Source of the DNA: Acidobacteriota bacterium
GTDB taxonomy: Bacteria > Acidobacteriota > Holophagae > Holophagales > Holophagaceae
NCBI GenBank assembly: GCA_016192145.1
Contig: JACPUT010000002.1
Location: forward strand, 310,001-374,000
Length of the DNA stretch: 64,000 nt
Direction of reading: 5' to 3'
Shown: in pieces, positions 49,335-61,167 of the stretch
Layout: every line of letters begins with the position of its first letter
Position numbering within the stretch: position 1 is the stretch's first letter
The notes under the pieces: model-generated
What the model was told of the DNA's origin: nothing
What the model saw: the letters and a program-made list of their open reading frames with translations, nothing else
Databases searched by the model: none
Translations under genes and position numbers: made by a program

Positions 49335-50315
49335 TCAGTATAAGGGCATCCATGAGCCCAGATGGTGCAGGGCGAAGCCCCCGAAACTGGAGTGCCGCGC
49401 GAAGGCCCGCCGGGCGACGGCCATCTCCCGGGCGAGCGCTCCCGGACCCCGGCCGTGGAAGGTGACCTTGGCGGGCACGGCGGGAGCCGTCTCCAGCCCG
49501 ATGATCACGGGACGTCCGATGAGATCACCGTAGTTCAGCTCCTCCTGCGCCAAGGCGATGATGCCGTCCTGGCCTTGGGCGCGGTGACGGTAGTCCATCA
49601 CGACCACATAGCCGAAGAGATCCTGCACCCATTGGTTCAGGGGGCGCCGCCGTTCCCGCCACATCACCTCCAGCCCGTCGTACCAGAAGGGGATCGCGGC
49701 CCCCACCTGGAGATTGGAATCGGCGTCATGAACCTGCGCCACCCATTCGGAGGCCCGCTCCAGGTAGAGCCGGGCCAAGTCCTCCTGGCTTCCCTCCGTC
49801 CAGTCCGCGTGGGCGTAAGGTTCCATATCGAGGTGGAGGCCATCAAAGCGGGCGTCGGGGGCCGCGTTCCGGTTGTAGTCGAGGATTCGCTGGATCTGGG
49901 ACTGCATCCGTCCGCGATGTTCCGGAAGCAGGTACTGCTTGGGGTGCCAGGACCCAGAGCCCAGGAGCGCCTCCACCCGGAGTCCCCGGGCATGGAGACG
50001 CGTCAGAACCGCCTGGACCTTCCCGGGATCCTCCGTGAGGAGATCCGCGCCTCCGCAGTCGCCCGGGTGGAGGTAAAGGGTGCGGACGCCGCGGCGCCGT
50101 AGCTTGGCGCCTGCTCGCGTCGTCTGGGCGGGATCATTGAAGAGGCGGCATCCGGCACCCTCCCACGCCCAGACCGCGAGGGGGGCTGGGGCCTGGCCAG
50201 GGGGCGCTGCGATCAGGGCGAGTCCACCCAGGAGCAGCAGGGTGCGGATCGTCGCGGCTACCAGGCGAGCAGCTCGTCGACGGCGCGGCGGATGGCTTCC
50301 TTCGAGGGCAGCCAC
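49335..50315 (-). CDS. exported glycosidase-like TIM-barrel protein
   Basis: Protein of 326 aa with a basic N-terminus and a hydrophobic segment (ATIRTLLLLGGLALIAAPPG) that should export or anchor it. The body looks like a (beta/alpha)8 barrel; FDGLHLDMEPYAHAD near residue 158 resembles the DGxxxDxE catalytic strand of family 18-like glycosidases, with the Glu as likely acid. I cannot assign a CAZy family with certainty. GTG at 50315 has GGAGG upstream and makes the gene overlap the E1-beta end by 58 bases. In polysaccharide loci such hydrolases trim the polymer, as the PgaB C-terminal domain does. Confidence 0.7.
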   Translation of the reverse strand: MAALEGSHPPRRRRAARLVAATIRTLLLLGGLALIAAPPGQAPAPLAVWAWEGAGCRLFNDPAQTTRAGAKLRRRGVRTLYLHPGDCGGADLLTEDPGKVQAVLTRLHARGLRVEALLGSGSWHPKQYLLPEHRGRMQSQIQRILDYNRNAAPDARFDGLHLDMEPYAHADWTEGSQEDLARLYLERASEWVAQVHDADSNLQVGAAIPFWYDGLEVMWRERRRPLNQWVQDLFGYVVVMDYRHRAQGQDGIIALAQEELNYGDLIGRPVIIGLETAPAVPAKVTFHGRGPGALAREMAVARRAFARHSSFGGFALHHLGSWMPLY

Positions 50316-51214
50316 GCGGCCTCCAGCACGGGGCTGGCGGGGCAGGGCGTGTCGAGGCTGGCGAGGCGCTTCACGGGGGCATCGAGCCAGGCGAAGCAGG
50401 TCTCCTGGATGCGGGCGGCCAGCTCGGCGCCGGGGCCGAAGCTGCCGCTGGGCTCCGTGAGCACGAGGATGCGGTGGGTGCGCTTGGCGAGGGCTTCAAG
50501 CGCCGCTTGATCCAGGGGCCAGAGGGTGCGGAGGTCCAGCACGGCCACGTCCAGGCCTTCCGTGGCTTCGAGGGCCCCGTGCTGCAGGGCGCCGTAGGTG
50601 ACGATGGCGGCGGAAGCCCCTTCGCGGCGGAGGGCGGCCTCGCCCAGACGCGCGGTGGGCGCCACGTCCCACTGGTCCTTGAGGCGGCGATAGAGGTGCT
50701 TGTGTTCGAGGAAGAGGACGGGATCCTCATCCTCGATGGAGGCGCGCAGCAGGGCGTAGGCGTCGGCCACGGTGCCGGGCATGACCACCTTGAGGCCCGG
50801 TGTGCCGAGGAAGTGGGTCTCCACGCACTGGGTGTGGAAGGGGCCGCCGCTGCCGCCGGCGCCCACGGGGCCGCGGAAGACGACGGGTACCGAGGCGCCC
50901 CAGCGCCAGCGGGCCTTCGCGGCGAAGTTGCAGATGAGATCCGAAGCCAGCAGGGAGAAGTCCATGAACTGGAACTCCGCCACGGGGCGGCGCCCTTGCA
51001 GGGCCGTGCCGATGGCCACGCCCGCGATGGCCTGCTCGGCGATGGGGGTGTCCAGCACGCGGCCTTCGCCGAAGGCCTCCAGCAGGCCCGCCGTGGCCTG
51101 GAAGGCGCCGCCGTAGGCGCCGATATCCTCGCCGAGGCAGAAGACCCGACCATCCGCGGCCATGGCGTCCTTCAACGCCGCGTTGATCGCCTCGAGGTAG
51201 CTGCCCTTGAACAT
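50258..51214 (-). CDS. 2-oxoacid dehydrogenase E1 component, beta subunit
   Basis: Beta subunit of a heterotetrameric thiamine-pyrophosphate E1 enzyme, pyruvate or branched-chain type (318 aa). GEDIGAYGGAFQATAGLLEAFG near residue 29, DTPIAEQAIAGVAIG and SDLICNFAAKARWRWG are family landmarks. The alpha subunit, normally the gene directly upstream, is not here; a MITE-like element begins two bases upstream of the ATG and a flavodoxin-type gene lies beyond it. No Shine-Dalgarno sequence is obvious in the element end. Either the alpha gene is elsewhere or an insertion or rearrangement separated the pair. Confidence 0.9.
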   Translation of the reverse strand: MFKGSYLEAINAALKDAMAADGRVFCLGEDIGAYGGAFQATAGLLEAFGEGRVLDTPIAEQAIAGVAIGTALQGRRPVAEFQFMDFSLLASDLICNFAAKARWRWGASVPVVFRGPVGAGGSGGPFHTQCVETHFLGTPGLKVVMPGTVADAYALLRASIEDEDPVLFLEHKHLYRRLKDQWDVAPTARLGEAALRREGASAAIVTYGALQHGALEATEGLDVAVLDLRTLWPLDQAALEALAKRTHRILVLTEPSGSFGPGAELAARIQETCFAWLDAPVKRLASLDTPCPASPVLEAAWLPSKEAIRRAVDELLAW

Positions 51215-52461: not shown

Positions 52462-53235
52462 ATGTCCATGGGACTCCTTTTCGATGCGACCCGCTGCGTG
52501 GGATGCGGGGCCTGCGCCTCGGCCTGCAAGGAGCAGAACCACCTGCCCGGGGAGGTGGAGGAGCGCACGACGGCCTACACCTGGACCACCGTGGAGGAGA
52601 AGGAGGGCGCTTACGTCCGCCACCTCTGCATGCACTGCCTCGTGCCCACCTGCGCTTCCGTGTGCCCGGTGGCGGCGCTCAAGAAGACGCCCGAGGGGCC
52701 CGTCGTCTACGACTCCGAAAAGTGCATGGGCTGCCGCTACTGCATGATGGCCTGCCCCTTCGACGTGCCCAAGTACCAGTGGGATCGCGCCGTGCCCATC
52801 GTGGGCAAGTGCATCCTCTGCGCGGGCCGCGTGAAGGAGGGCAAGCCCACCGCCTGCGCCGAGGCCTGCCCCGCGGACGCCACCCTCTTCGGCAGCCGGG
52901 CCGATCTCATCAAGGAAGCCAAAAAGCGCATCCGGGAGAACCCCGGCGGCTACCTCGACCACATCTACGGCCAGACGGAAGCCGGCGGAACCTCCGTGAT
53001 GATGATCTCCAACGTTCCCTTCGAGAAGCTGGGCCTGAAGAAGGACCTGCCCGGGGAGCCCCCGGCCCTGCGCACCTGGCAGGTGCTCTCCAACATCCCC
53101 GACTTCGTGGCGGTGTGGGGCGTCTTCCTCTACGGGGTCCACTGGATCACCGCCCGCAGGGATGTGGTGGCCCAGGCGCATCCGAGGCCGAGGCCCGAGG
53201 GCCCCGAAGCACCCAAGGACCGGAGGCCCTCATGA
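52462..53235 (+). CDS. HybA/HmcB-like multi-cluster ferredoxin subunit
   Basis: Electron-transfer subunit of 257 aa with four [4Fe-4S] binding sets: CVGCGACASAC near residue 12, CMHCLVPTCASVC near residue 56, CMGCRYCMMAC near residue 89, and CILC with CAEAC near residues 117-136. A hydrophobic segment near residues 215-232 (FVAVWGVFLYGVHWI) probably anchors it to the membrane, as in HybA. No Tat signal is seen, so it may face the cytoplasm. The stop overlaps the next start (ATGA). It pairs with the NrfD/HybB protein to pass electrons between the quinone pool and an unknown partner; no catalytic molybdopterin or hydrogenase subunit is encoded here. Confidence 0.93.
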   Translation: MSMGLLFDATRCVGCGACASACKEQNHLPGEVEERTTAYTWTTVEEKEGAYVRHLCMHCLVPTCASVCPVAALKKTPEGPVVYDSEKCMGCRYCMMACPFDVPKYQWDRAVPIVGKCILCAGRVKEGKPTACAEACPADATLFGSRADLIKEAKKRIRENPGGYLDHIYGQTEAGGTSVMMISNVPFEKLGLKKDLPGEPPALRTWQVLSNIPDFVAVWGVFLYGVHWITARRDVVAQAHPRPRPEGPEAPKDRRPS

Positions 53236-54395
53236 GCACCGCCGCAACCCAACCCGCCCGCCGCCCCTGGCCCGGTTTCTGGACGGCCCTCTTCGCCGTG
53301 CTCTTCATCGCCTTCTGCGTCGTCACGGTGATCCGCTTCACCAAGGGCCTTGGCGCGGTGACGAACCTCAGCGACCGTTTCCCCTGGGGCCTCTGGATCG
53401 GCTTCGACCTGCTCTGCGGCGTGGGCCTCGCCGCGGGCGCCTTCACCCTCACGGCGGTGGTGCACCTCTTCAACCTCCGGAAGTTCGAGCCCATCGTGCG
53501 CCCGGCCATCCTCACGGGCTTCCTGGGCTACATCTTCGTGATCATGGCCCTGATGTTCGACCTGGGCCAGCCCTGGCGCATCTGGCATGCCCTCATCTAC
53601 TGGAACCCGCACTCCGTCATGTTCGAGGTGGCCTGGTGCGTGATGCTCTACACCACCGTGCTCACCATGGAGTTCGCGCCGGTGGTGCTGGAGCGCTTCG
53701 GCTTCCACGCCCCTTCCCGGATCATCCACGGCCTCATCACCCCCCTGGTCATCGCGGGCGTGCTGCTCTCCACGCTGCATCAGAGCTCCCTGGGCTCGCT
53801 GTACCTCATCGTGCCCACGAAGCTGCATCCCCTCTGGTACTCCCAGCTGCTGCCGCTCTTCTTCTACATCTCGGCCATCGGCGCGGGCATTGGCATGGTG
53901 ATCCTCGAGTCCTACATGAGCAAGCGGGCCTTCGGACGGCACCTGGAGATGGAGCTCCTGGAGCCGCTGGCGCGGGCCATGGTGGTGGCGCTGGGGATCT
54001 ACGGCCTCCTCCGCCTGCAGACCATCGCGCGCAACCACGCCTTCGGCGACATCGGGGCCCTCACCTATGAAGGAAAGATGTTCCTGCTGGAATTCGCCTT
54101 GGGGGTGGTGATCCCGGTGGTTCTGCTCTCCTTCCAAAAGCTGCGCACCAACGCCAGTTGGCTGGTGACGGGGGCCTTCTCCGCGGTGCTGGGCTTCGTG
54201 GTGAACCGCCTGAACGTCAGCGTCACGGGCATGGAGCGGGCGGCGGGCATCCGCTACATCCCCTCCCTCATGGAGATCATCGTCTCCGTGGGCCTCGTGG
54301 GCCTGGGCATGGCGGTCTTCGCCCTCACGGTGCGCTACTTCCCCATCTTCGAACCGCACCCTGAGCCGGAGCCCGCCGACCCGGAAGGGGCTTGA
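53232..54395 (+). CDS. NrfD/HybB-family membrane quinone-interacting subunit
   Basis: Polytopic membrane protein (387 aa) with about ten hydrophobic segments. FPWGLWIGFDLLCGVGLAAGAF near residue 50 and GQPWRIWHALIYWNPHSVMFEVAW near residue 112 match the HybB/HmcC branch of the NrfD family, which exchanges electrons with (mena)quinone and may couple this to proton movement. It starts at ATG 53232, overlapping the ferredoxin stop. Together with the preceding protein it forms a minimal quinone-linked electron module followed directly by a sensor kinase, so it might itself be part of a redox sensor. Confidence 0.93.
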   Translation: MSTAATQPARRPWPGFWTALFAVLFIAFCVVTVIRFTKGLGAVTNLSDRFPWGLWIGFDLLCGVGLAAGAFTLTAVVHLFNLRKFEPIVRPAILTGFLGYIFVIMALMFDLGQPWRIWHALIYWNPHSVMFEVAWCVMLYTTVLTMEFAPVVLERFGFHAPSRIIHGLITPLVIAGVLLSTLHQSSLGSLYLIVPTKLHPLWYSQLLPLFFYISAIGAGIGMVILESYMSKRAFGRHLEMELLEPLARAMVVALGIYGLLRLQTIARNHAFGDIGALTYEGKMFLLEFALGVVIPVVLLSFQKLRTNASWLVTGAFSAVLGFVVNRLNVSVTGMERAAGIRYIPSLMEIIVSVGLVGLGMAVFALTVRYFPIFEPHPEPEPADPEGA

Positions 54396-54396
54396 G

Positions 54397-55929
54397 ATGC
54401 GCACCCGCATCGGCACCCGCTTCATCCTCGGCGCCGGCCTGGTGTCGGCGGCGGTGATCGGGGTGATGGCGGTGCTGATCGGGCGGGCCCACGGCGCGCA
54501 GCTCCTCTCGGAGCGCACCCGCAGCGCCAACCAGCTCAGCGAGACCATCAAGGGCAGCACCCACTTCGACATGCTGGAGAACCGCCGGGAGAACCTGCAC
54601 CGGCAGATCCGCGACATCGGCGCCCTCTCCGGTGAGGGCATCCACAAGGTGCGCCTCTTCAACAAGGAGGGGCAGATCATGTTCTCCTCCGCCAAGGAGG
54701 AGATCGGCACCACCCTGGGGATGAAGGCCGAGGCCTGCTTCGCCTGCCACGCCGAAGGCCGGCCCCTGGAGAAACCGGATATCACGGCCCGGGCCCGGAT
54801 CTTCCAGGGCGGCGATGGCCACCGCATCCTCGGCATCATCAGCCCCATCCCCAACGAGCCCAGCTGCTGGACCGCCGCCTGCCATGCCCACAAACCCGAG
54901 GCCAAGCTCCTGGGCGTGCTGGACGTTAACGTGTCCATGGCGGAAGCCGACGCCGAGCTGGCCCGCAGCCGTACGCTCATGACCGGGCTCGCGGCCCTCG
55001 CCATCTGCTCCAGCAGCCTCATCCTCTGGTGGCTCAACCGGCGGTTGGTCGTGCGCCCCGTGGCGGCCCTGCTGGAGGGCACCCGCCGGGTGGCGGAAGG
55101 GGATCTCAACACCGTGATTCCGGTGGCGGACAACCACGAGCTGGGCGAGCTCGCCAAGGCCTTCAACGCCATGACCCATCAGCTGGGCGAGACCCAGCGG
55201 CAGTTGGCCCAGGCGGACAAGCTGGCCTCCGTGGGGCGCCTGGCCGCGGGCATCGCCCACGAGATCAACAATCCCCTCACCGGTGTCCTCACCTACGCCT
55301 CCCTGCTGAAGAAACGCATCGCTCCCGAGGGAGCCGACGCGGAGGACGTGGACGTCATCATCCGGGAGACGATCCGCTGCCGGGGCATCATCCGCGAGCT
55401 GTTGGACTTCGCCCGGCCCACGCCGCCCAGCCGCAAACCCACGGATCTGAACGAAGTGGCGCGCCATTCCATGGCGGTGGTGATGACGCAGCTGCGCCTG
55501 AACCACGTGAGCCTCGCCCTGGATCTGGCCGCCGATCTCCCCCTGGCCTACGCCGATGGCAACCAGATCCAGCAGGTGGTGGTGAACCTCCTGCTCAACG
55601 CCGCCGACGCCAGCGGGCCGGAGGGCGGCGAGATCCACCTCGTCTCCAGGGCCGCCCCGCCGGGCTTCGTGGAACTCCAGGTCGAAGACCAGGGCGAGGG
55701 CATCCCGCTGGAGAGCCAGCCCCACCTCTTCGAGCCCTTCTTCACGACCAAAGGCAACAAGGGCACCGGCCTCGGCCTCGCCGTGACCTGGGGCATCGTC
55801 CAGAGCCACGGCGGCGCCATCACCGTCCACAGCGAGCCCGGGCACGGGGCCCGCTTCACCGTCCGCATCCCCCTGGCGCCGGCCGCGCCGAAACCCGACA
55901 ACCCTTCACCTGAGGAGCCCACGCCATGA
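54397..55929 (+). CDS. sensor histidine kinase with periplasmic haem c-type motifs
   Basis: Membrane kinase of 510 aa: transmembrane helices near residues 9-29 and 193-214 enclose a periplasmic sensor domain containing CFACH (residues 114-118) and CWTAACH (157-163), a CXXCH and a CX4CH haem-binding motif. HAMP follows (about 212-265), then HisKA with GIAHEINNPLTG (His288) and a HATPase with NLLLNAADA and GTGLGLAVTWG. Family knowledge: kinases with such di-haem periplasmic domains sense redox state, oxygen or nitric oxide. It starts one base after the NrfD stop and overlaps the next gene by four bases, so the output is probably tied to the redox subunits. Confidence 0.9.
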   Translation: MRTRIGTRFILGAGLVSAAVIGVMAVLIGRAHGAQLLSERTRSANQLSETIKGSTHFDMLENRRENLHRQIRDIGALSGEGIHKVRLFNKEGQIMFSSAKEEIGTTLGMKAEACFACHAEGRPLEKPDITARARIFQGGDGHRILGIISPIPNEPSCWTAACHAHKPEAKLLGVLDVNVSMAEADAELARSRTLMTGLAALAICSSSLILWWLNRRLVVRPVAALLEGTRRVAEGDLNTVIPVADNHELGELAKAFNAMTHQLGETQRQLAQADKLASVGRLAAGIAHEINNPLTGVLTYASLLKKRIAPEGADAEDVDVIIRETIRCRGIIRELLDFARPTPPSRKPTDLNEVARHSMAVVMTQLRLNHVSLALDLAADLPLAYADGNQIQQVVVNLLLNAADASGPEGGEIHLVSRAAPPGFVELQVEDQGEGIPLESQPHLFEPFFTTKGNKGTGLGLAVTWGIVQSHGGAITVHSEPGHGARFTVRIPLAPAAPKPDNPSPEEPTP

Positions 55930-57047
55930 CCGCCCTGTTGATCCTTCTGATGTTCGCCGCCTTCGTCGGCCTCGATGTCCTGGTGCGGCACACGGCCCGG
56001 AAGCTCCGAGAAAAACGGGAGCGCCTCGCTCGAGCCGCCGTACTGGAGTCGGCCGTCCGCCTGGATTTCACTCACGAGGCCAAATCCCTCAAGCGGGTGG
56101 ACGTGCCCCATCCCAGGGCCCGCATCCTCGCCGTGGATGATGAGCCCGTGATCCTGGATTCCTTCCGGAGAATCCTCGTGCTGGAGGGCTTCAGCGTCGA
56201 CACCGTGGAGACCGGCCAGGAGGCCCTGGGCCTCGTGCAGCGCAACAACTACGACTTCGTCTTCACGGATCTGAAGATGCCGGGCATGACCGGCGTGGAG
56301 GTGGTGAAGGGCGTGAAGCACCTGCGCCCCGACGTGGACGTGGTGGTCATCACGGGCTACGGCAGCATCGATACCGCCGTGGAAACGCTGCAGCAGGGCG
56401 CCTGCGAGTATGTGCAGAAGCCCTTCTCCGCCGATGAGCTGGGCGACTTCGCCCGAAAGCTCCTCATCAAGCGCGAGGCCCGCCTGGAATCCCAGCGCAA
56501 GCCGGTGGTACGCATCGTGAATCCGGATCTGGCGGAGATCGTGCCCGCCAACGAATACTGCGTGCCCGGCGGGGCCTTCATCGCCCCGGGCCACACCTGG
56601 GCCCGCATCGAGCCCGGCGGCCAGGTCTCCGTGGGCATCGACGATTTCGCCCGCAAGGCCCTGGGCGCCATCACCGAGGTGATCACGCCGGAGCATGGTC
56701 GCAGCGTCAAGCAGGGTGAGACCCTGTTCACCCTGAAACAGGGCAAGGAGACCCTCCACTTCACCACCCCCCTCAGCGGTCGCGTGGTGAAGGAGAACGT
56801 GGATCTGAAACACGACGCCAGCCCCCTGGCCCGCAGCCCCTACGACCGAGGCTGGGTGTGCCAGTTGCAGCCCTCTAACCTCGCCGGCGAATTGGACAAA
56901 CTGAAGATCGGCAAGCCCGTCATCGAGTGGTACCAGGAGGAGATCGCCCGCCTCCGCAAGAGCCAGGCGGAGCCCTCCCCCGCGCCCGGCATGCTGGACA
57001 TGGGGGCCTTCGAGGCCCAGTTCCTGGAACCCGCGGCCAAGGCTTGA
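55926..57047 (+). CDS. membrane-anchored response regulator fused to a GcvH-like domain
   Basis: Unusual 373-aa fusion. An N-terminal transmembrane helix (residues 2-20) and basic linker precede a receiver domain (about 64-180; VDDE at 70-73, phospho-Asp115 in FTDLKMPG, Lys165 in QKPF). Residues about 215-320 resemble the glycine cleavage H protein: PGHTWARI, VGIDDFARKALG, then GETLFTLKQGKETLHF, PLSGRVVKEN and PYDRGWV. The Lys274 in QGKE aligns with the lipoylated lysine of GcvH (ESVKA). There is no DNA-binding domain. The receiver is presumably phosphorylated by the haem-type kinase encoded next to it; a lipoyl arm would give it redox chemistry (inference). Confidence 0.88.
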   Translation: MTALLILLMFAAFVGLDVLVRHTARKLREKRERLARAAVLESAVRLDFTHEAKSLKRVDVPHPRARILAVDDEPVILDSFRRILVLEGFSVDTVETGQEALGLVQRNNYDFVFTDLKMPGMTGVEVVKGVKHLRPDVDVVVITGYGSIDTAVETLQQGACEYVQKPFSADELGDFARKLLIKREARLESQRKPVVRIVNPDLAEIVPANEYCVPGGAFIAPGHTWARIEPGGQVSVGIDDFARKALGAITEVITPEHGRSVKQGETLFTLKQGKETLHFTTPLSGRVVKENVDLKHDASPLARSPYDRGWVCQLQPSNLAGELDKLKIGKPVIEWYQEEIARLRKSQAEPSPAPGMLDMGAFEAQFLEPAAKA

Positions 57048-57093: not shown

Positions 57094-57130
57094 GGGGCAA
57101 CCTAGGAGTTCGAAGCTGCTGGGTTGCCCC
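57094..57130 (+). terminator. intrinsic terminator of the redox signalling operon
   Basis: Nine-bp stem GGGGCAACC/GGTTGCCCC with a 19-base loop, followed by CATCGTTTTC. It lies about 45 bases past the stop of the GcvH-like regulator gene and before the convergent GNAT gene. Confidence 0.75.
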
Positions 57131-60066: not shown

Positions 60067-61167
60067 GTGCTATTGGCGCTTGGACCGATCGAATACCGTT
60101 GGGGGGCCGCCCTGCTGCTTCTGGCGGTGGGCGGGGGGATCGGGGCTTGGATCGGCCATCGGGTCGGGCGCGTGCGGTGGGCCGCCAAGCTGGCGCGGGT
60201 CCGCCGCGCCATGAAGGCTCTCCAATCCGCCAACGATCACATGGGCGCGGTGCTGGAGAGCTTGGAGCGGGCGGCGGGCACGGACCGCCTGACGGGGGCT
60301 TGGAACCGGCGGCGCTGCGAGGAGGCGGTGGCGGCGGAGGTGGCCCTGGCCCGGCGGCGGAAGGGGGCCGTTTCCATCCTCATGATGGATATCGATCACT
60401 TCAAGCGCATCAACGACACCCACGGGCACGAGGCGGGGGATGCGGTGTTGGCGGGCCTCGCGGCGGCCTGGCGCAAGGTGCTCCGGGCCTCCGACCCCCT
60501 CGTTCGATGGGGAGGCGAGGAGTTTCTCGTCCTCTCCCCCGCCAGCCAGCTGGAAGGGGCGATGACCCTGGCGGAGAAGCTCCTCGTCGCCACGCGGGAG
60601 GTCACCTTCCCCGGCCTCGGCCCCGTGACGGTGAGCGTGGGCGTGGCCGAACACCTCCCGGGGGAATCCTGGGATGCGTGGATCCACCGGGCGGACGGCG
60701 CCCTTTACCGGGCCAAGGCGGAGGGGCGCGATCGGGCTGTGGCCGCCGAGGGAAGCCCCGTGATCCCATCGCACCTTCCATCCATCCTCGAGCTGACTTG
60801 GGAGGCGGCTTACGCCAGCGGTCACCCCCTCATCGACGAGCAGCACCGCCGCCTCTTCGAGCTGGCCAACGGGGTGCTCGCCGCCTTCGTGGTGGGGCTC
60901 CCCCGGGAGGAGACCTTGCTTCGGTGGAACCGGCTGGCGGCCCACGCGGCCCAGCACTTCAGCGACGAGGAGCGCCTCTTCGCCGAGGCCGGCTTCCCGG
61001 GGCTGGAACACCACGCGGTGGAGCACCAGAACCTCCTCGCCAAGGTCCGGGAACTGCAAACGGAGGTGGAGCAGGGAACCCTGGAGTTGGGCCGCCTGGT
61101 GGATTTCCTCGCCGTGCACCTGGTCAAGGGACACCTCCTTCAGGAGGATTGGGGCACCTTCAAGTAG
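60067..61167 (+). CDS. diguanylate cyclase with C-terminal haemerythrin domain
   Basis: Fusion of 366 aa: a transmembrane segment (about residues 11-33), a GGDEF domain (about 70-225) with active-site RWGGEEF (147-153) and an upstream RASD at 140-143 matching the inhibitory I-site, then a bacteriohaemerythrin domain (about 243-366) with the iron ligands in GHPLIDEQH (His253), HFSDEE (His297), HHAVEHQ and HLVKGH. It should make cyclic di-GMP in response to oxygen or iron redox state sensed by the di-iron site. Starts at GTG 60067. Possibly linked to the exopolysaccharide locus in this window, since GT2 synthases are common c-di-GMP targets (inference). Confidence 0.93.
   Translation: MLLALGPIEYRWGAALLLLAVGGGIGAWIGHRVGRVRWAAKLARVRRAMKALQSANDHMGAVLESLERAAGTDRLTGAWNRRRCEEAVAAEVALARRRKGAVSILMMDIDHFKRINDTHGHEAGDAVLAGLAAAWRKVLRASDPLVRWGGEEFLVLSPASQLEGAMTLAEKLLVATREVTFPGLGPVTVSVGVAEHLPGESWDAWIHRADGALYRAKAEGRDRAVAAEGSPVIPSHLPSILELTWEAAYASGHPLIDEQHRRLFELANGVLAAFVVGLPREETLLRWNRLAAHAAQHFSDEERLFAEAGFPGLEHHAVEHQNLLAKVRELQTEVEQGTLELGRLVDFLAVHLVKGHLLQEDWGTFK

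Follow-up and report, generated by a model that had tools for sequence, protein, structure and literature searches.

A candidate haem-based two-component system with a membrane-anchored receiver–GcvH-like protein beside a HybA-NrfD pair in Acidobacteriota

Two-component systems usually control respiration by gene expression. The 64,000-nucleotide stretch of acidobacterial DNA analysed here (hereafter, the window) carries an operon in which a sensor kinase and a receiver are encoded together with a quinone-linked electron-transfer pair, and it raises the question of what such a system regulates. An initial annotation, made from the sequence alone, had placed a four-gene redox operon at this position. 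This was confirmed: four genes lie on the + strand with no other gene between the first and the last. The first two overlap by 4 bases, as do the last two, and a single base separates the second from the third. The features of the locus are as follows:

52462..53235, + strand: HybA/HmcB-like protein; 16 cysteines, corresponding to four [4Fe-4S] sites; C-terminal TM helix; without Tat signal
53232..54395, + strand: HybB/HmcC-like NrfD membrane protein; about 10 TM helices; predicted to be quinone-reactive
54397..55929, + strand: membrane sensor kinase; periplasmic domain with CXXCH (114) and CX4CH (157); HAMP, HisKA (H288) and HATPase domains
55926..57047, + strand: membrane-anchored receiver with a C-terminal GcvH-like domain; TM 1-22, receiver about 64-186, GcvH-like domain about 212-325
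56745..56747, + strand: codon of Lys274, at the lipoyl position; not conserved
57094..57130, + strand: hairpin directly 3' of the last gene; possible transcription end

The hairpin has a 12-bp outer stem, and the 66-nt stretch containing it folds at -31.7 kcal/mol (z = -3.8); it is not followed by a long T run and was not flagged by a consensus terminator scan. Pfam assigned 4Fe-4S dicluster domains to the first gene product, NrfD (90 bits) to the second, HAMP, HisKA and HATPase_c to the third, and Response_reg (98.6 bits) and GCV_H (70.2 bits) to the fourth. The membrane-anchored receiver with a C-terminal H-protein-like domain, as originally described, is therefore present. Two absences proposed in the same annotation also held. 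No DNA-binding domain was found in the receiver protein with Pfam. No cytochrome or hydrogenase catalytic partner was found in the operon by ORF and Pfam analysis, nor was a catalytic subunit evident among the neighbouring ORFs that were read.

Operon components and their co-occurrence

The first two genes resemble parts of known respiratory complexes. A four-cluster, tail-anchored Fe-S protein together with an NrfD-type membrane protein is common to the Hmc complex of sulfate reducers (HmcB/HmcC), to E. coli hydrogenase-2 (HybA/HybB) and to the window operon. These are also the best NCBIfam matches, yet all scores fall below the curated cut-offs: 256 bits for HmcB (cut-off 420) and 214 for HybA (263) with the HybA-like protein, and 344 for HmcC (550) and 299 for the HybB type (450) with the NrfD protein. 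Unlike these complexes, the window operon has no HmcA cytochrome, hydrogenase subunits or Tat signal, and is joined instead to a kinase and a receiver. Each of the 16 cysteines of the HybA-like protein is conserved in all 46 homologues compared, and the NrfD protein is the only one of its type in the genome.

The kinase had been annotated as haem-type on the basis of a CXXCH and a CX4CH motif, and both were found, at C114 and C157 respectively. C114/C117/H118, C157/C162/H163 and Met59 are invariant in 18 kinases from many families across Acidobacteriota that are 31-73% identical to the window kinase. The phospho-accepting histidine is H288, which is likewise invariant, within a HisKA domain that is followed by a HATPase domain. 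A CXXCH motif in a periplasmic sensor is shared with the sCache_heme c-haem sensors GSU0582 and GSU0935, from which the window kinase differs in having two motifs, one of them CX4CH, and in matching PF21563 only at E = 0.005. Its sensor domain gave no Pfam match to PF11845; in a weak alignment (E = 0.46) with 3b42, a Geobacter c-haem sensor, the CX4CH region corresponds to the stretch holding the haem motif. A structural fold search with the sensor was uninformative because kinase cores dominated the matches. Sensors with an additional haem motif have been mentioned for Geobacter and Anaeromyxobacter (PMC3831638), and NO-binding or redox roles have been described for c-haem Cache sensors (PMC12889525). 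From the invariant motifs, we infer that the periplasmic domain of the window kinase binds haem.

To assess the distribution of the operon, the GcvH-like part of the receiver protein was searched against 93 genomes of the class, and the sensor part of the kinase was used as a second query; the family counts were read by hand off the two search tables. The window's family, probably Holophagaceae and close to Geothrix, is represented by 77 genomes, of which 61 gave a strong match to the receiver–GcvH gene. The haem kinase was found on the same contig, at a distance of about 2 kb, in 56 of them; the five remaining copies are at or near the ends of contigs in fragmented assemblies. The sensor query detected no kinase in any of the 16 family genomes lacking the receiver–GcvH gene. 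Each of the 15 regions of the family that were read around the main copy has the order HybA, NrfD, kinase, receiver, which argues against a chance arrangement. The gene-order comparison proposed in the initial annotation thus points to a genuine, co-conserved redox-signalling unit. A sixteenth family region carries an orphan paralogue of the anchored receiver–GcvH protein (L053:8198-9331), with no kinase, HybA or NrfD gene nearby. No match was found in viral contigs or plasmids, and a scan of the genome collection with alignment A3 returned five Acidobacteriota loci only, owing to the strictness of its patterns.

The anchored receiver and its GcvH-like domain

The receiver residues D71, D72, D115, T143 and K165 are invariant in 16 family members, so that the phosphorylation site, Asp115, is intact. 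In the family sample, the receiver is the best-conserved part of the protein, with a mean pairwise identity of 90%, versus 68% for the GcvH-like part; the structural model of the window receiver is poor (pLDDT <50). Phosphotransfer from the kinase to this receiver is suggested by their adjacency and co-occurrence. The N-terminal anchor is common to proteins with and without a fused receiver (MVALFVILTIVAFIAVD in unfused proteins, MTALLILLMFAAFVGLD in the window), and all 21 fused proteins compared, as well as about 20 unfused ones, have an acidic residue exactly at anchor position 17. In the window lineage, the receiver is inserted between this anchor, with its invariant Asp17, and the GcvH-like domain. 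A soluble receiver–GcvH-like protein without membrane anchor is encoded next to an anchored one at L104:1779-2615.

The GcvH-like domain shares its fold with GcvH: the AlphaFold model, well predicted in this part, gave a TM-score of about 0.9 on the target against H-proteins in Foldseek, and the Pfam score is about 70 bits. It differs from GcvH in its membrane anchor and in having neither a conserved lipoyl lysine nor the preceding glutamate. The receiver–GcvH-like gene is not adjacent to gcvT or gcvP, and the genome encodes its true GcvH, which has the usual VESVK motif, by another gene.

Thiol or lipoyl redox state had been put forward as a regulated output, on the grounds that the lipoyl-type Lys274 is kept. 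Lys274 does align with the lipoyl lysine of solved H-proteins and lies, in the model, at the tip of a hairpin (266-272/275-280). Nonetheless, none of the 39 other family members has a lysine at this position, where A, T, S, L, E or D stands instead, which makes "kept" misleading for a residue present in this genome. Across the phylum, a lysine is found there in only 3 of 73 domains of this GcvH-like kind (G, A, S, E, F and others occur outside the family), whereas all true GcvH sequences in the alignment have it. The glutamate three residues before the lysine is also missing, the window protein reading LKQGK where the true GcvH of the genome reads VESVK. The Lys274 of the window is best seen as an accidental return. 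Lipoylation of Lys274, with dithiol redox chemistry as the regulated output, is accordingly very improbable, since the lysine is not conserved in homologues, the observation that had been named beforehand as counting against it. A stand-alone transketolase-type protein resembling a 2-oxoacid dehydrogenase E1 beta subunit is encoded 1.2 kb upstream of the operon on the other strand (window 50258-51214, - strand). A lipoyl link through this gene was considered and rejected because the regions read in the related genus have other neighbours, such as groEL.

Related clusters across Acidobacteriota

We extended the search to 396 genomes of the phylum and fetched 40 regions outside the class, as well as regions of the sister family. 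A recurrent cluster emerged, comprising a haem kinase of the window type, an NtrC-type regulator (receiver, sigma-54 AAA+ and HTH domains), HybA, NrfD, one or two GcvH-like proteins, one of which is membrane-anchored, and often a multihaem cytochrome c. The kinase type, HybA, NrfD and a TM-anchored GcvH-like subunit are thus common to these clusters and the window operon; the former differ in having the sigma-54 regulator, a free GcvH-like subunit and, often, the cytochrome c and a Tat signal on HybA. Such anchored subunits are found beside HybA-NrfD and an NtrC regulator in many other Acidobacteriota families, suggesting that the subunit belongs to the quinone module and not to the receiver of the window. 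The gene order suggests a possible physical association of the GcvH-like subunit with NrfD/HybA. The absence of a DNA-binding output consequently applies to the window operon, but not to the wider cluster, most versions of which carry the NtrC-type regulator.

Loss of the NtrC regulator together with a receiver inside the anchored GcvH-like protein was observed in the window's family and in L096 and L101-L104 of other families; L098 also has a fused receiver, in a truncated contig. No NtrC gene (sigma-54 AAA+ and HTH) was found in the regions read around fused clusters, whereas it is present in sister clusters. Kinases with a fused partner form one clade (100/99), beside the kinases of the NtrC-regulator clusters, so that the change of output probably happened once. 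Descent of the fused receiver from the NtrC receiver of the cluster was not supported: a long branch separates the two, in a tree with long-branch warnings.

A second GcvH-like kind carries a conserved four-cysteine motif, C..(W)M..G...Y..C...Y.C..C (L105:8649-9698, L109:7833-8702, L118:8131-9168, L054:9594-10427), possibly a metal or Fe-S site; it has been lost in the window lineage. In several clusters, NrfD is fused at its C-terminus to a multihaem cytochrome c with 3 CXXCH motifs (L105:5191-6798, L118:4705-6300, L126:2339-3934, L122:8968-10542) or 14 (L101:3-3209). In one genome of a sister genus (L039:1579-5174), two multihaem cytochromes are encoded directly upstream of the operon: a CbcL-like protein, in which a c7-type cytochrome is joined to a b561 domain, and one of the NapC/NirT type. 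The NapC type is also present in a second genome (L040:14967-15602). The CbcL-like homologue of the window genome is on another contig. The upstream cytochromes of the sister genus raise a possible link to extracellular electron transfer. The lineages with these clusters are thought to include metal reducers.

No Tat signal is present on the HybA of the window or on its closest relatives, nor is there space for one: in-frame stops directly upstream rule out an earlier start that would include a signal. Where HybA does carry a Tat signal, the cluster generally includes a cytochrome c gene as well. NrfD topology was judged from hydropathy and loop charges; the latter are alike in clusters with and without the signal, which suggests that NrfD of the window has the topology seen where HybA is exported by Tat. 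An inverted NrfD in clusters with a cytoplasmic-looking HybA was not supported, the loop-charge pattern being the same. The HybA-like protein of the window may lie on the cytoplasmic face, as the receiver does, or be exported by other means.

At least three lineages of HybA-NrfD occur next to the pair of kinase and fused receiver, and in one genus two of these lineages occupy the same groEL-flanked slot. The HybA-NrfD tree conflicts with the kinase tree, so that any contact is not that of a strictly co-evolved pair. Judged from these sequences, the signalling pair is the constant element and the quinone module the exchangeable one. Two lineages about 50% alike (L041, L042, L045, L048 and L050 versus L043, L044, L046, L049, L052 and L058) have replaced one another at a shared position in front of the same kinase and receiver genes, and the second of them groups with L131 from a distant family.

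A proposed mechanism and its alternatives

We tentatively favour, at a little under even confidence, a haem-based two-component system whose output is a phosphorylation-controlled accessory subunit of a quinone-reactive membrane module. Through its periplasmic domain, the kinase would bind one or two c-type haems and read the periplasmic redox state or a haem ligand. It would then phosphorylate Asp115 of the receiver, itself set within the membrane-anchored GcvH-like subunit that normally accompanies HybA-NrfD. Phosphorylation could alter how this subunit engages HybA-NrfD, through its anchor and its apparently non-lipoylated GcvH-like domain, and thereby change electron exchange with the menaquinone pool. 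The sequences themselves show the gene set and its co-occurrence, the conserved haem motifs and receiver residues, the common anchor, the lost lipoyl lysine and the missing NtrC partner; haem binding, phosphotransfer, docking on NrfD/HybA and control of electron flow are the steps that we infer. More tentative still is the fuller proposal that the receiver, as part of the accessory subunit of HybA-NrfD, gates electron flow in response to the haem kinase, arose once in place of a transcription-factor output, and has been kept across different HybA-NrfD modules.

This phosphorylation-controlled subunit is supported by the tight co-occurrence of the receiver–GcvH gene and the kinase, by the invariance of the haem motifs and the strong conservation of a receiver with an intact phosphorylation site, and by the anchor with acidic position 17 in fused and unfused proteins alike. 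It is further supported by the anchored GcvH-like subunits found beside HybA-NrfD in many other families, by the single clade of fused-partner kinases with no NtrC gene in their regions and by the persistence of the fused pair beside HybA-NrfD even when the latter is of another lineage. Against it stand the differing HybA-NrfD and kinase trees, the lack of a Tat signal on HybA although the NrfD loop charges suggest the topology of clusters with a Tat signal, and the poor modelling of the receiver.

The direction of signalling could also be the reverse, with HybA-NrfD as the input, linking the kinase, or what surrounds it, to the quinone pool, the anchored receiver setting the kinase state or localising the system, and the output passing through other partners. 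The missing catalytic subunit, the exchange of HybA-NrfD lineages beside a constant kinase-receiver pair and the presence of an NtrC transcription factor beside this type of kinase in other clusters would fit this arrangement. We consider it rather unlikely, as a conserved haem sensor domain is already part of the kinase and the subunit type to which the receiver is joined accompanies HybA-NrfD in unfused clusters too. Transcription might alternatively remain the output, the anchored receiver acting as a phosphate sink or competitor while the kinase mainly phosphorylates an NtrC-type or other regulator elsewhere. Most relatives of the kinase are indeed paired with such a regulator, and the window genome has about 90 receiver matches; but no NtrC-type gene lies around any fused cluster read, and the receiver is conserved with a specific anchor and GcvH-like domain beyond what a sink would need, so that we regard this as unlikely.

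The swapping of HybA-NrfD lineages in one slot could also be accounted for if HybA-NrfD were an ordinary electron-transfer pair that shared nothing but an expression unit with the two-component system next to it. This is harder to reconcile with the gene overlaps, with the recurrence of the combination throughout the phylum and with a receiver fused to the very type of subunit that belongs to the module, and appears decidedly improbable. Of the earlier reading as a whole, the co-conserved redox-signalling unit, the haem-type kinase and the lack of a DNA-binding output in the operon stand, whereas the thiol/lipoyl output does not.

Each part of the operon has known kin; the combination, and the insertion of a receiver into a GcvH-like membrane subunit, appear to be the new elements. 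No description of the receiver–GcvH fusion, of the cluster or of a swap of transcription for a membrane output was found in the literature searched, which covered few subscription journals. The same holds for the phylum-wide family defined here, of apparently non-lipoylated, membrane-anchored GcvH-like subunits beside NrfD modules. The operon suggests that a respiratory component may be tuned directly, and not solely by gene expression, and the related clusters with and without a DNA-binding regulator make it possible to ask whether a redox signal was rewired from transcription to control of a quinone module. Elsewhere in the window (60067-61167, + strand), a diguanylate cyclase (GGDEF) is fused to a C-terminal hemerythrin domain.
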